IMG/VR virus record: IMGVR_UViG_3300044949_001749
Coordinates: 1 to 31,381 of that record
Length of the DNA: 31,381 bases
Origin: a virus
Strand: one strand, 5' to 3'
The notes beneath the pieces were generated by a model. That model was given only the letters and a program-made list of their open reading frames with translations. It did no database searches and had not been told where the DNA came from. The position numbers and the translations under genes were made by a program. The first letter of the stretch is position 1, and every line of letters starts with the position of its first letter. Positions 1,337 to 31,381 of this stretch are shown here, in pieces.

Positions 1337-4300
1337 ATGAATATTTTTGAAATTGATTCTTTTAATCTTGCGGACGCTGTAAAATTCAACAACGAATTAA
1401 ATCCGCGTATTTGGGATGGCATGAAAATGCGTCCCGAAGTTCGCGAAAAACTGTTGACCATTGCAGCAGATTTTCAACAAAGTTTGGGAGTCAACGGCCT
1501 AGATGTAGAAGACATCACTGTGAGTGGCAGCAACGCAGGATTCACGTATACCCCACATTCAGACATTGATCTGCACCTGGTGGTTCGCATGCCCGAAGAT
1601 TGCGACGAAGTTTATCAAGAACTGTTCAATGCCAAAAAATATCAATACAACGACGAACACGACATACGCATCGGCGGCTATGATGTAGAGCTGTATGTGC
1701 AGCCCAGCGACCAGCCACATGTGAGCGCAGGTGTTTACAGTGTAAAAAACAACGACTGGATTCATATTCCTCGACAGATTGCTGCTCAAGTTGATGACGA
1801 GTCTGTGCGCAACAAATACGAGGACGTCAAGGCCAGAATTGAATCTGCGCTGAAAAGCAACGACATCGATCGCCTGCGCAGACTCTGGGACAAGATCAAA
1901 GACATGCGCAAGTCGGGCCTGGCTCAAAACGGAGAACTGGGCCCAGAAAATCTTGCTTTCAAGATGCTGCGCACACAGGGAGATCTAGGCCAGCTCAAAG
2001 ATGCCATAAACCGCGCACGCGATGCTGAACTCAGCCTAAATGAACGACGCAAGAAAAAGAAAAAGTCTCGTGTAAAATATGGATTCGGTGGTTATTGGGC
2101 GCCTGGATTTGCGTTTGGCGGCAGTGGAGAATCCGGAGAAGGCGGTGGTGGTGATGGCGGTGGCGAGAGCAAATTTGGTGAAGACGTTACGCTGACACCA
2201 TCTGGTGTCAGTCCCAGCACCAAGATGTTTTTGAGTGAAAAGGATGTGCCCGGCCAGACCGAAATCATTTTTGACTTCATGCGTTATGTTGTCGATGAAT
2301 TAGAGCTGCACAATGTGCCCAAACTGAAAATTCACCGAGATCCACAGTGGAGCGTGATGCACAAAACATTTGGCAGATATCGCGATGACACAGGCCAAAT
2401 TGACCTGGCTGTGGGCAATCGTCACATCATGGATGTGCTGCGAACTCTGGCACACGAACTACAGCATCGCAAGCAGGACGAGCGTGAGCACATGCCCGAT
2501 GGTGCTGGCGAAACTGGATCACGTTTTGAAAATGAAGCCAATGCTGTGGCCGGTGTGCTAATGCGTCAGTATGCTGAACTGCACCCAGAATATTTTGAAG
2601 ATGTGCCTGTGAGTGAATCAGCATCAGGCTACATTCCCAAGAACAAAAAAGAAGCACAAAAGCCACAATACCAAATGGCCTTGAGTGTGGATATCAAGCC
2701 CGGACAAACAGGTAAGGAAGCCAACAAAATGGCCTTGGATACCGATCGTCAAGGCAAGCCCAGTTTGGTTTTCAAAAGTGTAAATCAGCTTGCTGAAGAA
2801 TTCGACCAATTTAAAAAAAACAAAAGTCACGGCTATAATTCCCAACCGCTGAGTCAAGAGCCTGGGGAACAAGAAGATGATCTGGGCAATCAGGAAGCCA
2901 CTGGCCCTGAATTCCCACCACAAATGCCTGCAGGCACAACCAAGATTGACGTGGATGATTTAACAGACTGGTATAGACTGGGCATGGACATCAGCGATTT
3001 AGACGACGCTGATCCCGAAGATTACGGCAAAGGGCCACCGCAAACTGTGGTTGTGTTTCCCAGTGACAAAGCCGAACAGGGCTATCTCAAACAATTCAAA
3101 CGCCTGGGCCTGAAAACACACGACATAGATCCCGATGTTGAGGGTGGCGAAGACATCTCTGGCAAGCACCTAAACGAAGCAGATCGCAGAGACGTGTTAA
3201 AAACCATGGCCGCAGGAGCAGCCGCTGCTGCTGTGCCAGGTATGTCAAAGGCCGGAACATTTGTTGATATACCAGCCATGGCCACCACTGATCCACAACA
3301 GGTTGAAAAAGTATGGGTTCCTCGTTTTCAAGAGCTCACTCTGAGATGTCAAAACATGTTACAGAGACTGATAGCTGCTGCTGGACCCCGATGGGCTCAA
3401 AGCCTGCGAGGATCAACTGTGCGTGTGGTGTCAAATCAAAACTATGCACAGGCCAACAGTCAAACCAAACTGGTCACTATTGATCTTTCGGTGTTCTGGG
3501 ATGCGCCCGATTCTGTGCTGGCATTTGCCATAGCACATGAGTTGGGACACATTGCGCTGGCTCACAAAGAAGTAGACATCGACAATGCCGATTACGCAAA
3601 ACGAGTTCAAGCAGCAAAAATATCACAGCAACAAGAACTCGACGCAGATGCATTTGCAATACAGGTATGTAAAATTCTTGGATACAATCGTTCAGAGCTG
3701 TTTAGATTTATTTCCAGAAATGAACAAGAATATCAGTTGTTCAGACAAATGATGCAGTCGCCCACTGACACACATCCCACCTACAGAGAACGCATTGAAC
3801 GTGCAAGAAAAAATGGATTTGAACTATCACGTGGCGGTATTCAACAGATGCAGGCTCTTCAGCAGCACTTGGCCGAAGACGAGCTGGTAGAAAGTCTGCG
3901 CCAGGAATTTGAGTTGTTGGAAAGTGAAATGCTGGGCGAAATTGTCATGAGTCCTTCCAATCTCAGAAAACAAGCTGCTCAAACAGGCGCACTAGCAGGT
4001 ATGGAATTTGAAATGATTGTGCCCGATGTCAATATTGAAGATGACATTGAGCCCGAATACGAACGCGACGACAGTGCGGATCAGCGAGCCCGTAGCTTTG
4101 ACGACATTGAACAATTCTTCTTGGATGGCGATTACAACGGTCGGGGTGATGTTCGCAGACTGATTAGCAGTCTTCAAGAAGCCTACCAGGAATGGATGAT
4201 GGAGCGCACCGACGACGACTGGGCCAACGAAGGCGAGGACTATGTTCACGATTATGTTACCGACAACGATCTATTTGATCGAGACGAAGCGTTGACTCAA

Positions 4301-5887
4301 GCCCGAGACGAAATCGCAGATGCTAACCCCAATCTTGACACTGATTCTGAAGAGTTCAATGAACTGTTGAGCACTCGAGTCAACGATCTAGAAGAGCAGT
4401 TTGCAAAAGATGAATTTGAAAATCAGGGAAGCATCTACAACGATGCGTTTGAACAGTTTGTTGATGAAAAAAATCAGGACTACGACGAAAGTGACTTTTT
4501 AGAAGACACTGTGCCTTACATGAGTGATGTCGCTAACAGTTATGACATACAGTGGCCCTATTGGGTTGACATCAATGCTGATAGACCAAGAAGCCCCGAC
4601 ATAGATTCAGTGGCCGAAGATTTCAGTGAAGCCATTGGCAGACCAGTAAACACCAGTCAACGATACAGCATGGGTGTGAGACAACCCGGCAAGTATGTTG
4701 TAGAGCCCGATGGCAGTTTGAATCCTGATGACGTCAATGACATGGGCTTGGAATTTGTAAGCCCGCCACTGCCCATTGACGAAATGCTGAGTGATCTCGA
4801 AAAGGTCAAGGCCTGGGCCGAACAACGTGGGTGCTACACCAACAGTTCAACTGGCTTGCACATCAATATTAGTGTGCCCGACTTTGATGTGGCCAAACTT
4901 GACTATGTGAAACTGGCACTGTTGCTGGGCGACAAGTATGTGTTGGAGCAGTTTGGACGTAGTTCAAACACCTATACAGAATCTGCCCTGGGCAAAGTTG
5001 AGAACATGGTGCGTCAAAATCCACAAGTGGCTCAGGCACTGTTGGACAAAATGCGCGGGCACATGGAAGATCTTGCCACCAAGGCTGTGCACTCAGGCGA
5101 AACAGAAAAATTCACATCAATCAATACCAAACAAAATCGCATTGAGTTTCGCTCACCGGGTGGCGATTGGTTGAATGATAACTTAGACAAGATTGGAAAC
5201 ACCCTGTTACGTTTCACCGTGGCTTTGAGTGCTGCCATGAACCCCGAAGCCTACAGAGAAGAATACCTCAAGAAGCTATACAAATTATTGTCACCCACTG
5301 CCGATACAAATCGCAACAAAGACACTGTGAAGTATTTTGCTGACTACGTTGCAGGCAATATACCCAAGGCTGCACTGCGTAGTTTCGTCAAGCAAGCACA
5401 GTTGGAGCGAGGTGTTGCCAAGGGCCGAGTCACTGGACCCATGTGGTGGGAGGTGATCAATCCTGCCATGCCCCAGGCCAGCATCAACGTCGTGGCCAAC
5501 AATGCGGAAGAGGCCATTGCCAGCGCAATATTGCCAGGCAACTATCCTGAGTGGGCCAAAGTGCAGAATAATCTTAAAGCAACTCCACTGCGTTCATATA
5601 CAGCACCCGCAGCAAAAACTACTGAACCTGCTGCCCAAGCACAGCAGCAGGCCACACCAGCTTCGCAGAATACCGGCGACCCTGGCAGTCTCATTGACCA
5701 AGGTCTTGCTGCCAGCAGCAACTTTACCGGCAACTGGTTGATTCAAGATCCTGAAGGAAGAACTCTGCACAGATTTGGCGGAGTTGGCAATAGTCAAGGT
5801 GATGCCAATAACTTTGCATTGCGCTGGTTGAGATCAAACCCGCAACACATATACACTGGTGTTGAAGTAGTTCCGGAACTTAGATAA
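1337..5887 (+). CDS. Giant modular protein: nucleotidyltransferase, two HExxH peptidases, amidoligase-like domain
   Basis: A 1516-residue chain. Residues 1-230 are a Pol-beta-type nucleotidyltransferase with SGS at 63-65, catalytic D76-I-D78, and an acidic third site at D116/E118. LSLNE (232-236) is followed by KKKKK and a Gly-rich linker (to about 277). Residues 285-425 hold a zinc peptidase-like domain with HELQH at 373-377 and a likely third ligand in FENEANA (E398/E400). Residues 535-610 are an unknown acidic module. HLNE (611-614) then precedes a Tat-like segment and an M48-like peptidase: HELGH 734-738, third ligand in ELDADAFA (E767), THP at 812-814. Residues 889-1350 resemble an amidoligase (MEFEMIVPD, GLEF, STGLHINIS, NRIEFRSPGGDW), with an acidic insert at about 900-1080. 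Two small modules end the chain (about 1365-1415 and 1463-1516). Internal xxE sites at module borders suggest prohead-protease processing. The module calls rest on motifs and the processing is inference. Confidence 0.85.
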   Translation: MNIFEIDSFNLADAVKFNNELNPRIWDGMKMRPEVREKLLTIAADFQQSLGVNGLDVEDITVSGSNAGFTYTPHSDIDLHLVVRMPEDCDEVYQELFNAKKYQYNDEHDIRIGGYDVELYVQPSDQPHVSAGVYSVKNNDWIHIPRQIAAQVDDESVRNKYEDVKARIESALKSNDIDRLRRLWDKIKDMRKSGLAQNGELGPENLAFKMLRTQGDLGQLKDAINRARDAELSLNERRKKKKKSRVKYGFGGYWAPGFAFGGSGESGEGGGGDGGGESKFGEDVTLTPSGVSPSTKMFLSEKDVPGQTEIIFDFMRYVVDELELHNVPKLKIHRDPQWSVMHKTFGRYRDDTGQIDLAVGNRHIMDVLRTLAHELQHRKQDEREHMPDGAGETGSRFENEANAVAGVLMRQYAELHPEYFEDVPVSESASGYIPKNKKEAQKPQYQMALSVDIKPGQTGKEANKMALDTDRQGKPSLVFKSVNQLAEEFDQFKKNKSHGYNSQPLSQEPGEQEDDLGNQEATGPEFPPQMPAGTTKIDVDDLTDWYRLGMDISDLDDADPEDYGKGPPQTVVVFPSDKAEQGYLKQFKRLGLKTHDIDPDVEGGEDISGKHLNEADRRDVLKTMAAGAAAAAVPGMSKAGTFVDIPAMATTDPQQVEKVWVPRFQELTLRCQNMLQRLIAAAGPRWAQSLRGSTVRVVSNQNYAQANSQTKLVTIDLSVFWDAPDSVLAFAIAHELGHIALAHKEVDIDNADYAKRVQAAKISQQQELDADAFAIQVCKILGYNRSELFRFISRNEQEYQLFRQMMQSPTDTHPTYRERIERARKNGFELSRGGIQQMQALQQHLAEDELVESLRQEFELLESEMLGEIVMSPSNLRKQAAQTGALAGMEFEMIVPDVNIEDDIEPEYERDDSADQRARSFDDIEQFFLDGDYNGRGDVRRLISSLQEAYQEWMMERTDDDWANEGEDYVHDYVTDNDLFDRDEALTQARDEIADANPNLDTDSEEFNELLSTRVNDLEEQFAKDEFENQGSIYNDAFEQFVDEKNQDYDESDFLEDTVPYMSDVANSYDIQWPYWVDINADRPRSPDIDSVAEDFSEAIGRPVNTSQRYSMGVRQPGKYVVEPDGSLNPDDVNDMGLEFVSPPLPIDEMLSDLEKVKAWAEQRGCYTNSSTGLHINISVPDFDVAKLDYVKLALLLGDKYVLEQFGRSSNTYTESALGKVENMVRQNPQVAQALLDKMRGHMEDLATKAVHSGETEKFTSINTKQNRIEFRSPGGDWLNDNLDKIGNTLLRFTVALSAAMNPEAYREEYLKKLYKLLSPTADTNRNKDTVKYFADYVAGNIPKAALRSFVKQAQLERGVAKGRVTGPMWWEVINPAMPQASINVVANNAEEAIASAILPGNYPEWAKVQNNLKATPLRSYTAPAAKTTEPAAQAQQQATPASQNTGDPGSLIDQGLAASSNFTGNWLIQDPEGRTLHRFGGVGNSQGDANNFALRWLRSNPQHIYTGVEVVPELR
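3179..3256 (+). other. Internal Tat-like signal segment directly after an LNE site
   Basis: This covers residues 615-640 of the 1516-aa product. After HLNE comes ADRRDVLKTMAAGAAA, then AAVPGMSKAG. It has twin arginines R617-R618, then x-hydrophobic-L-K, an Ala-rich weakly hydrophobic core and an Ala-x-x-Ala-like end. That fits a twin-arginine export signal (consensus S/T-R-R-x-F-L-K), but it sits mid-chain. Cleavage after E614 would expose it at a new N-terminus, immediately before the M48-like peptidase. It may also be a relic of a captured secreted bacterial peptidase. Confidence 0.55.
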
Positions 5888-11419: not shown

Positions 11420-11427
11420 ACTAAATA
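11420..11427 (+). promoter_or_regulatory. Candidate late promoter (ACTAAATA)
   Basis: ACTAAATA lies in the 51-base spacer between the 730-aa polyprotein gene and the ATG at 11433. The CTAAATA form recurs in spacers at 15871 and 21185 of this window and resembles the late-promoter variant of marine T4-like phages. It ends only 5 bases before the ATG. Confidence 0.35.
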
Positions 11428-28805: not shown

Positions 28806-29507
28806 ATGACCGACAACAGTTTGAACCTATCACAAGTAATTCGTAAACGTATTCAACGCGAAGGCGGCCGATTCTGGGCCGGTGACAACATCAGTCAGTG
28901 GATCACCGACAAAGAAAAAGACTTGCTAGTGGACGAACTCACTGGCAAATTTGAAGGTGTGCTGGACAGTTTGATCATTGATCGACAAACAGATCCTAAT
29001 TCTGTGGGAACAGCTCGACGTTTAGCAAAGATGTATGTGTATGAAATCATGGCAGGCAGGTATGAGGAGAGTCCCAATGCTACGGCATTTCCAAATGACA
29101 CAGACGGGAAATATGAAGGTATGTTGGTTGTGCGAAGCGAGCTTAAGAGCATGTGCTCGCATCATCACCAACCTGTGTCGGGTGTGGCTTACATTGGAAT
29201 CATTGCTGGGCCTAAACTCATTGGACTATCAAAATACACACGTATTGCACAATGGTGTGCTCGACGGGGAACTCTCCAAGAAGAACTATGTATGGATATT
29301 GCAAGAGAAATCGAAGCGGCAACTGGCTCCCGGGACGTTGCGGTTTATATCCAAGCTACCCACGGATGTTGTGAGAACCGTGGTATTATGGCACACTCTA
29401 GCCTCACCCAAACCACAGTTTTACACGGTGCATTCAAAACTGATCCGGGCGTGAAAAAAGAGTTTTTTGACAATATCAAACTGCAACAGGACTTTGCTCC
29501 CCGTTGA
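28806..29507 (+). CDS. folE: GTP cyclohydrolase I
   Basis: A 233-residue protein with the FolE core intact. Zinc ligands are C117 and H120 in SMCSHHHQP and C188 in ATHGCCENRG. Substrate-site motifs are LIGLSKYTRIAQWCARR and ATGSRDVAVYIQATHG. It turns GTP into dihydroneopterin triphosphate, the entry to both folate and 7-deazaguanine synthesis. In phages with DpdA it usually supplies the 7-deazaguanine pathway. Here the dpdA-like and QueD-like genes lie 4-6 kb upstream in the same direction; QueC and QueE are not in the window. It starts 2 bases after the aminotransferase stop. Confidence 0.95.
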   Translation: MTDNSLNLSQVIRKRIQREGGRFWAGDNISQWITDKEKDLLVDELTGKFEGVLDSLIIDRQTDPNSVGTARRLAKMYVYEIMAGRYEESPNATAFPNDTDGKYEGMLVVRSELKSMCSHHHQPVSGVAYIGIIAGPKLIGLSKYTRIAQWCARRGTLQEELCMDIAREIEAATGSRDVAVYIQATHGCCENRGIMAHSSLTQTTVLHGAFKTDPGVKKEFFDNIKLQQDFAPR

Positions 29508-29509
29508 TG

Positions 29510-29538
29510 TTGACTAAAAAATAAACCTAGCTTACAAT
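29510..29538 (+). promoter_or_regulatory. Strong sigma-70 promoter for the lipoprotein gene
   Basis: TTGACT (29510-29515) and TACAAT (29533-29538) each match consensus at 5 of 6 positions, with an ideal 17-base spacer. This is the best host-type promoter in the window. The predicted start site (about 29545) falls on the ATG, so the RNA would be leaderless, and no ribosome site is seen. The -10 box is overlapped by an inverted repeat. Confidence 0.75.
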
Positions 29539-29565
29539 GAGTGCATGAAATACTTTGCACTCATT
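29536..29565 (+). repeat. Perfect 10-bp inverted repeat over promoter and start codon
   Basis: AATGAGTGCA (29536-29545), a 10-base loop, then TGCACTCATT (29556-29565). The left arm covers the end of the -10 box and the expected start site, and the right arm lies in the first codons. As DNA it fits a repressor site that would block polymerase. As RNA from upstream read-through it would hide the start codon in a hairpin. Confidence 0.7.
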
Positions 29566-31381
29566 CTGTTTACTTTAGTATTATCTGGCTGCGGTGGCGG
29601 CGGAGGAAGTAGCGGCTCCCTACTTCTTCGCGATGTTCCGTTTTATACACCAACCGGTATAAATCACTACAGCCCCCTGGTGACGTCGGTTTATGTAACT
29701 CCATCTACAGAAATATTCACAAAAGATCTAAACAACGACAGCGTGGACGAAGTTGTTGTTTCATCTGTGGCTTTTAACAGTCAATACACCACAGGCGGGT
29801 GGAAGGACTCAAAACTTCAAATTTACGGGTTCAATTCAGGTTCGTTTAAAAACGAAACTTCAACATGGATGCCCGGAACAGACAGTCAATATCTTGGCGG
29901 CACCACTGTTAGATTTGGTGATTTCAACGGTGATGGCAAAATTGACGTATTTGCCGCAACATTTTCGGACACAAACATCCATTCATCCATGCCTGTGTTT
30001 ATTAACAATGGCAACAACAGGTTTACAAGAACCAACATAGACTTTGGTAATGTTGGTGCCCATGACAGCATAGTGGTGGATCTTAACCGAGACGGTTATG
30101 CAGACATTGTGGTCACAGACATTGTTAATCAAAAGCCAGCTGTGGCATTTGGATCCAGCACAGGAAACTTCACTGTGTATCGCAGTGATACATTCGGTGG
30201 CGGCGCCGGCATCAGTGTTGCAGACTATTTGGGCAATGGCACACAAACTATAGTGCTGACTGATGCTCCAACAAGCGATAGTGGCAGCAACGACACAAAA
30301 TTATTTTCATGGAGCGTGTCCAACGGAAAATTAGTTTTGACAAAAATTGCAGATCTTCCGCCGGATCGTTTTAGTTTATCCAAGTGGTCCAGTGTTGTTT
30401 CACAATCTACTGTTGAGCCGCATGCAGTCCGTAACATCACTATGGACTTTGACAACGACGGCCGACCTGATGTTGTTGTGTTCAGCACCATGCCAAAAAA
30501 CGGAAACACACATGGTTACAGTGAAGTTCAATTTCTTAAAAACAACGGCGGCGGCAGTTTTACCGATGTCACTGACAGTGTTTTAGTCAACTACAACACC
30601 AATAAAACTACCACTTACAATCCACAACTGATCGATGTCAACAACGACGGGTTGGTTGACATTTTGATTTCAGCAACAGACTATACCGGGCAAGCATCTA
30701 CGTCGGTGCTGTTGGCAACCAAGGAAGGCAAATTTGTAGAGAGCTACACACAGGTTTTCTCAGATTTTGCAAATCAAACCAAGTCAATGAGTGCTAGTGC
30801 TGTGCAAAATCAATCTATTACTATTGTGGCTGGACCCAATGGCAAACGGTATCTAATGACCGGAGTGGAAACAACTGACAGCAGTGGTGTTCCGCAAATT
30901 GCTGTTTATCTCAGTTTGATTGGTTCCACAGGAACAGTGACTGCACCAGCCACAGTGGCAGTTATTCAACAGGCCTGGCCCTGGATGAGCGCAGCCGAAG
31001 CCAACGAAGCTCTAGCAAAAAGTATTGTGAGCTGGGTGGATGGTATGCCGGTATTGGATCTTAAATCGGTCATGAACCCCATTGGATCTTTGACAATTTC
31101 TCTTACAGGACGCACAGGAACACGCATACCAATTGCAGGATCTCTCAGTGTGCCCGGACTTGACAGTGCACTGCTCACTAACATTCAAGCGGTTGATTCT
31201 TTGAATCGTAATTTTTCCGTAAATGTGGCTGGCATGGCTCTCAAGCCACTGGGCATTCCTATTAGGTATAATTTATACACCGCCGATGTTACACAAAATT
31301 GGAGCAGTCGTTTTACCAACATTGAAAATCACAGTCACAATGGCATGGATACCAGTGGCGATGGGCAGTCGGCATATGCAC
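29545..31381 (+). CDS. VCBS/FG-GAP-repeat lipoprotein (3' end outside window)
   Basis: An open frame of at least 612 codons, with no stop before the window end. The N-terminus MKYFALILFTLVLSGCGGGG is a lipoprotein signal with lipobox LSGC (Cys16), so the mature protein should be anchored to a membrane, most likely the outer membrane. Five DxDxDG-like calcium loops of the FG-GAP/VCBS type follow: DLNNDSVDE (61-69), DFNGDGKID (126-134), DLNRDGYAD (179-187), DFDNDGRPD (301-309) and DVNNDGLVD (364-372), as in beta-propellers. Beyond about 430 the sequence is Ser/Thr/Gly-rich and unassigned. It has its own host-type promoter, unlike its neighbours. Possible roles are altering the host surface, blocking superinfection or adhesion. 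A captured host gene is also possible. Confidence 0.85.
   Translation, partial: MKYFALILFTLVLSGCGGGGGSSGSLLLRDVPFYTPTGINHYSPLVTSVYVTPSTEIFTKDLNNDSVDEVVVSSVAFNSQYTTGGWKDSKLQIYGFNSGSFKNETSTWMPGTDSQYLGGTTVRFGDFNGDGKIDVFAATFSDTNIHSSMPVFINNGNNRFTRTNIDFGNVGAHDSIVVDLNRDGYADIVVTDIVNQKPAVAFGSSTGNFTVYRSDTFGGGAGISVADYLGNGTQTIVLTDAPTSDSGSNDTKLFSWSVSNGKLVLTKIADLPPDRFSLSKWSSVVSQSTVEPHAVRNITMDFDNDGRPDVVVFSTMPKNGNTHGYSEVQFLKNNGGGSFTDVTDSVLVNYNTNKTTTYNPQLIDVNNDGLVDILISATDYTGQASTSVLLATKEGKFVESYTQVFSDFANQTKSMSASAVQNQSITIVAGPNGKRYLMTGVETTDSSGVPQIAVYLSLIGSTGTVTAPATVAVIQQAWPWMSAAEANEALAKSIVSWVDGMPVLDLKSVMNPIGSLTISLTGRTGTRIPIAGSLSVPGLDSALLTNIQAVDSLNRNFSVNVAGMALKPLGIPIRYNLYTADVTQNWSSRFTNIENHSHNGMDTSGDGQSAYA

Follow-up and report, generated by a model that had tools for sequence, protein, structure and literature searches.

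The window (the whole stretch of 31,381 nucleotides analysed here) belongs to a T4-like phage, whose DNA polymerase is closest to those of the jumbo phages Phosso, Atu_ph07, CBB and 121Q (43-52% identity). Close to its end, a folE-like gene is followed by a lipoprotein gene, and the gap of 37 nt between them holds TTGACT, a 17-nt spacer, TACAAT and the 5' arm of a hairpin. The features, all on the plus strand, are as follows:

28806-29507, plus: folE-like GTP cyclohydrolase I gene (Pfam PF01227, E 4e-38), adjoining the site upstream
29510-29515, plus: -35 element TTGACT (sequence, promoter scan)
29533-29538, plus: -10 element TACAAT (sequence, promoter scan); TATAAT at the same position in the relatives L002 and L003
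29536-29545, plus: hairpin 5' arm AATGAGTGCA, overlapping the -10 box; its last base is the A of the start codon
29545-29547, plus: start codon and predicted transcription start, seventh base past the -10 box, at the position of a family-wide +7 ATG peak; without Shine-Dalgarno motif
29545-31380, plus: accessory lipoprotein gene with signal peptide, lipobox LSGC and, after it, FG-GAP repeats; cut off by the contig end
29556-29565, plus: hairpin 3' arm TGCACTCATT, within codons 4-7 of the lipoprotein gene
29563-29576, plus: U-rich stretch ATTCTGTTTACTTT at and after the hairpin 3' end, a weak terminator tail with 6 T in a 9-nt window

The earlier note had proposed a host-type promoter at this site. 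The promoter scan agreed, because TTGACT-17-TACAAT at 29510-29538 matches the consensus at 10 of 12 positions and is a predicted sigma70-type promoter, the only good one in the window. TTGAC-17-TATAAT also precedes the homologous lipoprotein genes in relatives. Because sigma70-type promoters are common in these relatives (many TTGAC-17-TATAAT promoters, often near TTGACCAATAATNCCCAATTTGCTATAAT, and few matches in reversed-pattern controls), the window promoter is a member of a normal class. The note had further contrasted this promoter with a phage genome that otherwise used T4-type promoters, and this view stood only in part. Several T4-late-like TAAATA boxes were found 11-59 nt before genes of the window, but the T4 late-promoter box TATAAATA is absent from it. 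The phage group uses both kinds of promoter, and therefore the contrast holds only inside the window. TAAATA or CTAAATA is the probable late-promoter variant of this group. CTAAATA boxes lie shortly before window genes, e.g. at 11422, 21186 and 24180; in relatives they are mostly biased to the sense strand, and some have leaderless spacing.

The folE-HIT junction in relatives

Two contigs of uncultured phages, L002 (76% identity) and L003 (60%), carry close homologues of the lipoprotein, in both cases directly after folE; the window folE is 91% identical to the L002 copy and 78% identical to the L003 copy. Searches for bacterial relatives and for relatives in isolated phages found none, and the structure prediction (mean pLDDT of 50) was too poor for a fold search. 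In ten related contigs or loci a HIT-family gene follows folE, with the HIT motif within about 150 nt. The lipoprotein unit of L002 and L003 sits between folE and HIT, and a lipoprotein homologue in L009 was also part of the junction comparison. At the same junction, L028 carries a different FG-GAP lipoprotein, and L085 a subtilase that is secreted and has a promoter-hairpin of its own.

These gene orders mark the folE-HIT junction as a place where genes for envelope or secreted proteins are inserted. Relatives have no insert there, a different lipoprotein or a secreted protease, and the unit of promoter and lipoprotein gene is best described as a moron-like insert. The moron-style unit proposed in the earlier note is thus upheld, as the unit has its own promoter and is present, absent or replaced in relatives. 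At another site of the window, 1337-5887, a protein of 1516 amino acids joins peptidase M48-like and amidoligase-like domains.

Leaderless starts in the phage group

The ATG at 29545 is evidently the only sensible start of the lipoprotein gene, because it opens the signal peptide MKYFALILFTLVLSGC, which is of the lipoprotein type with a lipobox. The mRNA appears to be leaderless and to start on this AUG, with the start predicted from the -10 spacing alone; the window sequence contains no Shine-Dalgarno motif for this gene. A leaderless start had also been claimed in the earlier note, and both the +7 spacing and a family-wide +7 peak argue for it. Among the relatives, 41 of 254 promoters had an ATG exactly at +7 after the -10 box. 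With a broader promoter definition, a +7 ATG followed 58 of 586 promoters, 40 of them opening frames of at least 50 codons, compared with a mean of about 8.5 at neighbouring offsets (Poisson p ~1e-28, for sites that are related and not phylogenetically independent). In whole records (n=15), the +7 pattern yielded 60 matches and a +9 pattern 7. A Shine-Dalgarno 4-mer was found in none of the 38 +7 genes of at least 50 codons. The orthologues of a 5'-3' exonuclease in five contigs kept the +7 ATG while their spacers differed, and the same was true for two further families, characterised by THIVYxxxxGxxFYIG and GFxCKxL.

At the TATAAATA boxes of the same group, ATG also peaked, though less strongly, at +6 (10 of 86, all with long frames). 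Leaderless starts thus seem to be a genuine class in this phage group, apparently arising from both sigma70-type and T4-late-type promoters. The +7 peak was absent in the isolates 121Q, CBB and RB49, and therefore it is not a general T4-like trait.

Some of the +7 frames are very short. In L002 (about 4969-4998), the +7 ATG opens a frame of nine codons, MINYLHLFL, the TGA of which overlaps the ATG of the lipoprotein gene (ATGA); this frame may encode a leaderless leader peptide whose translation is coupled to that of the lipoprotein. L011 has a frame of four codons at the matching place. On the minus strands of L118 and L130, conserved short +7 frames (MLSSNAKHFLTL and MLSSDAKHFLNSVSKL) represent another possible leaderless leader peptide. 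The window itself contains the mini-frame ATG AGT GCA TGA at 29537-29548, which also overlaps the lipoprotein start by ATGA and would exist only in read-through RNA.

The promoter-embedded hairpin

AATGAGTGCA and TGCACTCATT pair perfectly over 10 bp as an inverted repeat, and the 10 nt between them make up the loop. As the earlier note had described, the repeat spans the edge of the -10 box and the first codons: the A of the ATG is the last base of the 5' arm, and the 3' arm lies within codons 4-7. Repeats of 10 bp with loops of 3-20 nt occur twice in the window, versus a mean of 0.7 in shuffles, whereas the exact combination with the promoter was found once in the window versus not at all in 100 shuffles. 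A 10-bp repeat is not rare by itself, and its overlap with a near-consensus promoter in a 37-nt gap is the unusual part. Folding showed that the hairpin forms in read-through RNA, where the A of the AUG and codons 4-7 are paired and the AUG lies at the edge between arm and loop, and that it is absent from the gene's own transcript with the predicted start. The U-tract of the window hairpin is interrupted, and therefore termination there would be weak.

The earlier note had named absence of the palindrome from relatives as evidence against its reading, and the outcome was mixed. The two nearest relatives retain the hairpin with a different sequence, and more distant ones lack it. In L002, the arms AATAGGTGTA/TGCACCTATT retain 10 of 10 pairs relative to the window, with two double compensations and one C-to-U change that retains a G-U pair, so that this compensatory evidence comes from one sequence pair. 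In L003, the hairpin that spans the promoter is longer and has TTTTT behind it. The more distant homologues L012, L018 and L019 have the promoter but lack a strong hairpin, which makes the hairpin optional. Because the arm sequence changed in L002 while the pairing was kept, once as G-U, the palindrome points to RNA; at sequence level, a hairpin in the RNA explains it better than an operator does.

Hairpins with the 5' arm in a promoter were also enriched as a class. At a score of at least 22, we found 11 compared with 0.8-1.4 expected, about tenfold over shuffles, and 0 in 42 coding decoys; the threshold was set after inspection of these results, the sites lack phylogenetic independence, and the counted set includes the window. 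The scan for ungapped stems misses bulged hairpins, e.g. the fuller L003 terminator, and the class counts are lower bounds. In isolated phages, promoter-embedded hairpins numbered 7 versus 0.4-0.7 (121Q) and 4 versus about 0.2 (RB49). U-rich tails (at least 6 T of 9) followed 14 of 20 strong stems and 18 of 343 weak stems (p 4e-9), and in 17 of the 20 strong stems the 5' arm ends upstream of a +7 start. The -10 hexamer lies inside the hairpin loop in L173, L113 and RB49; in the latter (L247, minus strand near 3200), promoter and terminator-like hairpin overlap and the -10 box is the loop.

Two further cases are of a similar kind. On the minus strand of L113 near 7864, a 17-bp hairpin has the -10 box in its loop and a perfect AAAGGAG Shine-Dalgarno motif in its 3' arm and is followed by TTTTTTATG; it could be a gate able to both mask and terminate. 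In L212 near 12055 (phage 121Q, record 52055-52110), a terminator-like hairpin is embedded in a promoter.

Readings of the hairpin and known systems

Our preferred reading, which we consider probable, is a compact expression cassette that has its own promoter and a hairpin acting on read-through RNA only, and that bypasses its own hairpin. The sigma70 promoter would start RNA at or next to 29545, so that the mRNA would begin with AUG. The hairpin's 5' arm is encoded in the -10/+1 region and its 3' arm in the first codons; a polymerase arriving through folE, a possible source of read-through RNA, would transcribe both arms, and the hairpin would form ahead of the U-rich stretch. The folE read-through RNA would then be terminated and/or its AUG masked. 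RNA from the internal promoter would lack the 5' arm and escape, and the lipoprotein gene, to which we would assign an accessory role, would thus be expressed mainly from its own promoter. Because the U-tract in the window is imperfect, masking of the start may contribute.

Alternatively, the hairpin might be a translational gate of the T4 gene e or I-TevI type, which would act on read-through RNA mainly by masking its start region and not by termination. This is unlikely, although the weak U-tract of the window, the AUG at the edge between arm and loop with codons 4-7 in the stem, the Shine-Dalgarno motif hidden in the L113 cassette and the T4 precedent (PMC3014915) all fit it. U-rich tails are strongly enriched after hairpins of the class, whereas masking needs none, and an internal AUG without Shine-Dalgarno motif would be poorly translated anyway. 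The earlier note had favoured a repressible operator, i.e. a dimeric repressor that binds the palindrome and blocks the promoter. The perfect, symmetric 10-bp arms over -10/+1 do occupy a classical operator position. However, L002 and L003 conserve the pairing and not the arm sequence, no second copy of the half-site occurs within the window, and the search for the same palindrome at other promoters, which the note had suggested, returned four exact copies in viral contigs, none of them at a recognisable promoter. We therefore regard the operator as very improbable. That the palindrome is coincidental and that only the promoter and the leaderless start matter is scarcely credible, because the frequency of such repeats in the window and the many homologues without a palindrome are outweighed by the compensatory conservation in L002 and the class-wide enrichment with U-tracts.

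Extended beyond this locus, the cassette reading leads to a generalisation that we favour slightly: in uncultured T4-like jumbo-phage relatives, many early and late genes may be leaderless, and some may be guarded by self-bypassing terminators whose 5' arm belongs to the promoter and whose 3' arm falls within the opening codons. If this is true, a gene could be inserted behind any operon, and its own start would remain the sole source of its transcripts. The testable rule would be that accessory genes join operons without crosstalk, one hairpin sorting transcripts by their start. For dozens of genes of an uncultured lineage of phages, the +7 ATG peak predicts the exact mRNA 5' ends, and leaderless translation in T4-like infection is therefore directly testable. 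The peak also shows gene callers where to place starts that lack a ribosome-binding site.

Morons have been described in temperate phages. The unit resembles them in having its own promoter, in occupying a junction at which relatives either have it, lack it or carry something else, and in its predicted envelope product, but it lies in a T4-like, probably lytic jumbo-phage relative; no obvious separate terminator was found downstream of the lipoprotein gene in L002. Leaderless mRNAs are known, e.g. that of lambda cI and actinobacterial and archaeal transcripts. The genes described here share with them the AUG at the predicted 5' end and the lack of a Shine-Dalgarno motif, whereas they form a sizeable gene class of one phage group.

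PeSL (promoter early stem-loop) elements, associated with Arbiol 2010 and Comeau 2014, are reportedly composite promoter-terminator motifs of T4-type phages. They are said to comprise a strong sigma70-like promoter and a stem-loop that is an effective terminator, and to mediate recombination and shuffling of cassettes; RB49 is reportedly among the phages in which they were described. The window site agrees with PeSL as so described in combining a strong sigma70-type promoter with a stem-loop between genes of a T4-like phage, and an overlapping form is present in RB49. Concerning the terminator feature, the stem is present and the U-tract is weak; concerning shuffling, a variable insertion junction, folE-HIT, was observed. 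Unlike in the reported PeSL elements, the gene here is leaderless and its coding sequence contains the 3' arm. At 1248-1298, the window also contains an intrinsic-terminator-like hairpin (AAAAGCCC/GGGCTTTT) with a T-run, directly upstream of TTGACT-16-TATAAC and an ATAAATA box; the layout is PeSL-like, but hairpin and promoter do not overlap.

Inhibitory hairpins occur at T4 gene e, soc, 49 and I-TevI (PMC3014915). For e and I-TevI, the hairpin is found only in upstream-initiated RNA, as an internal promoter lies in the 5' arm; this promoter is of the late type (TATAAATA), and the Shine-Dalgarno motif or AUG is hidden in the helix (PMC3014915). By positions and folding, with a predicted start, the window site shares the internal promoter in the 5' arm and the own transcript without structure. 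It differs in its sigma70-type promoter, in the absence of TATAAATA and of a Shine-Dalgarno motif, and in the U-rich tail that follows. The new element is the combination of a leaderless gene with a hairpin 3' arm in its codons, which would work like PeSL cassettes and T4 gene e hairpins.
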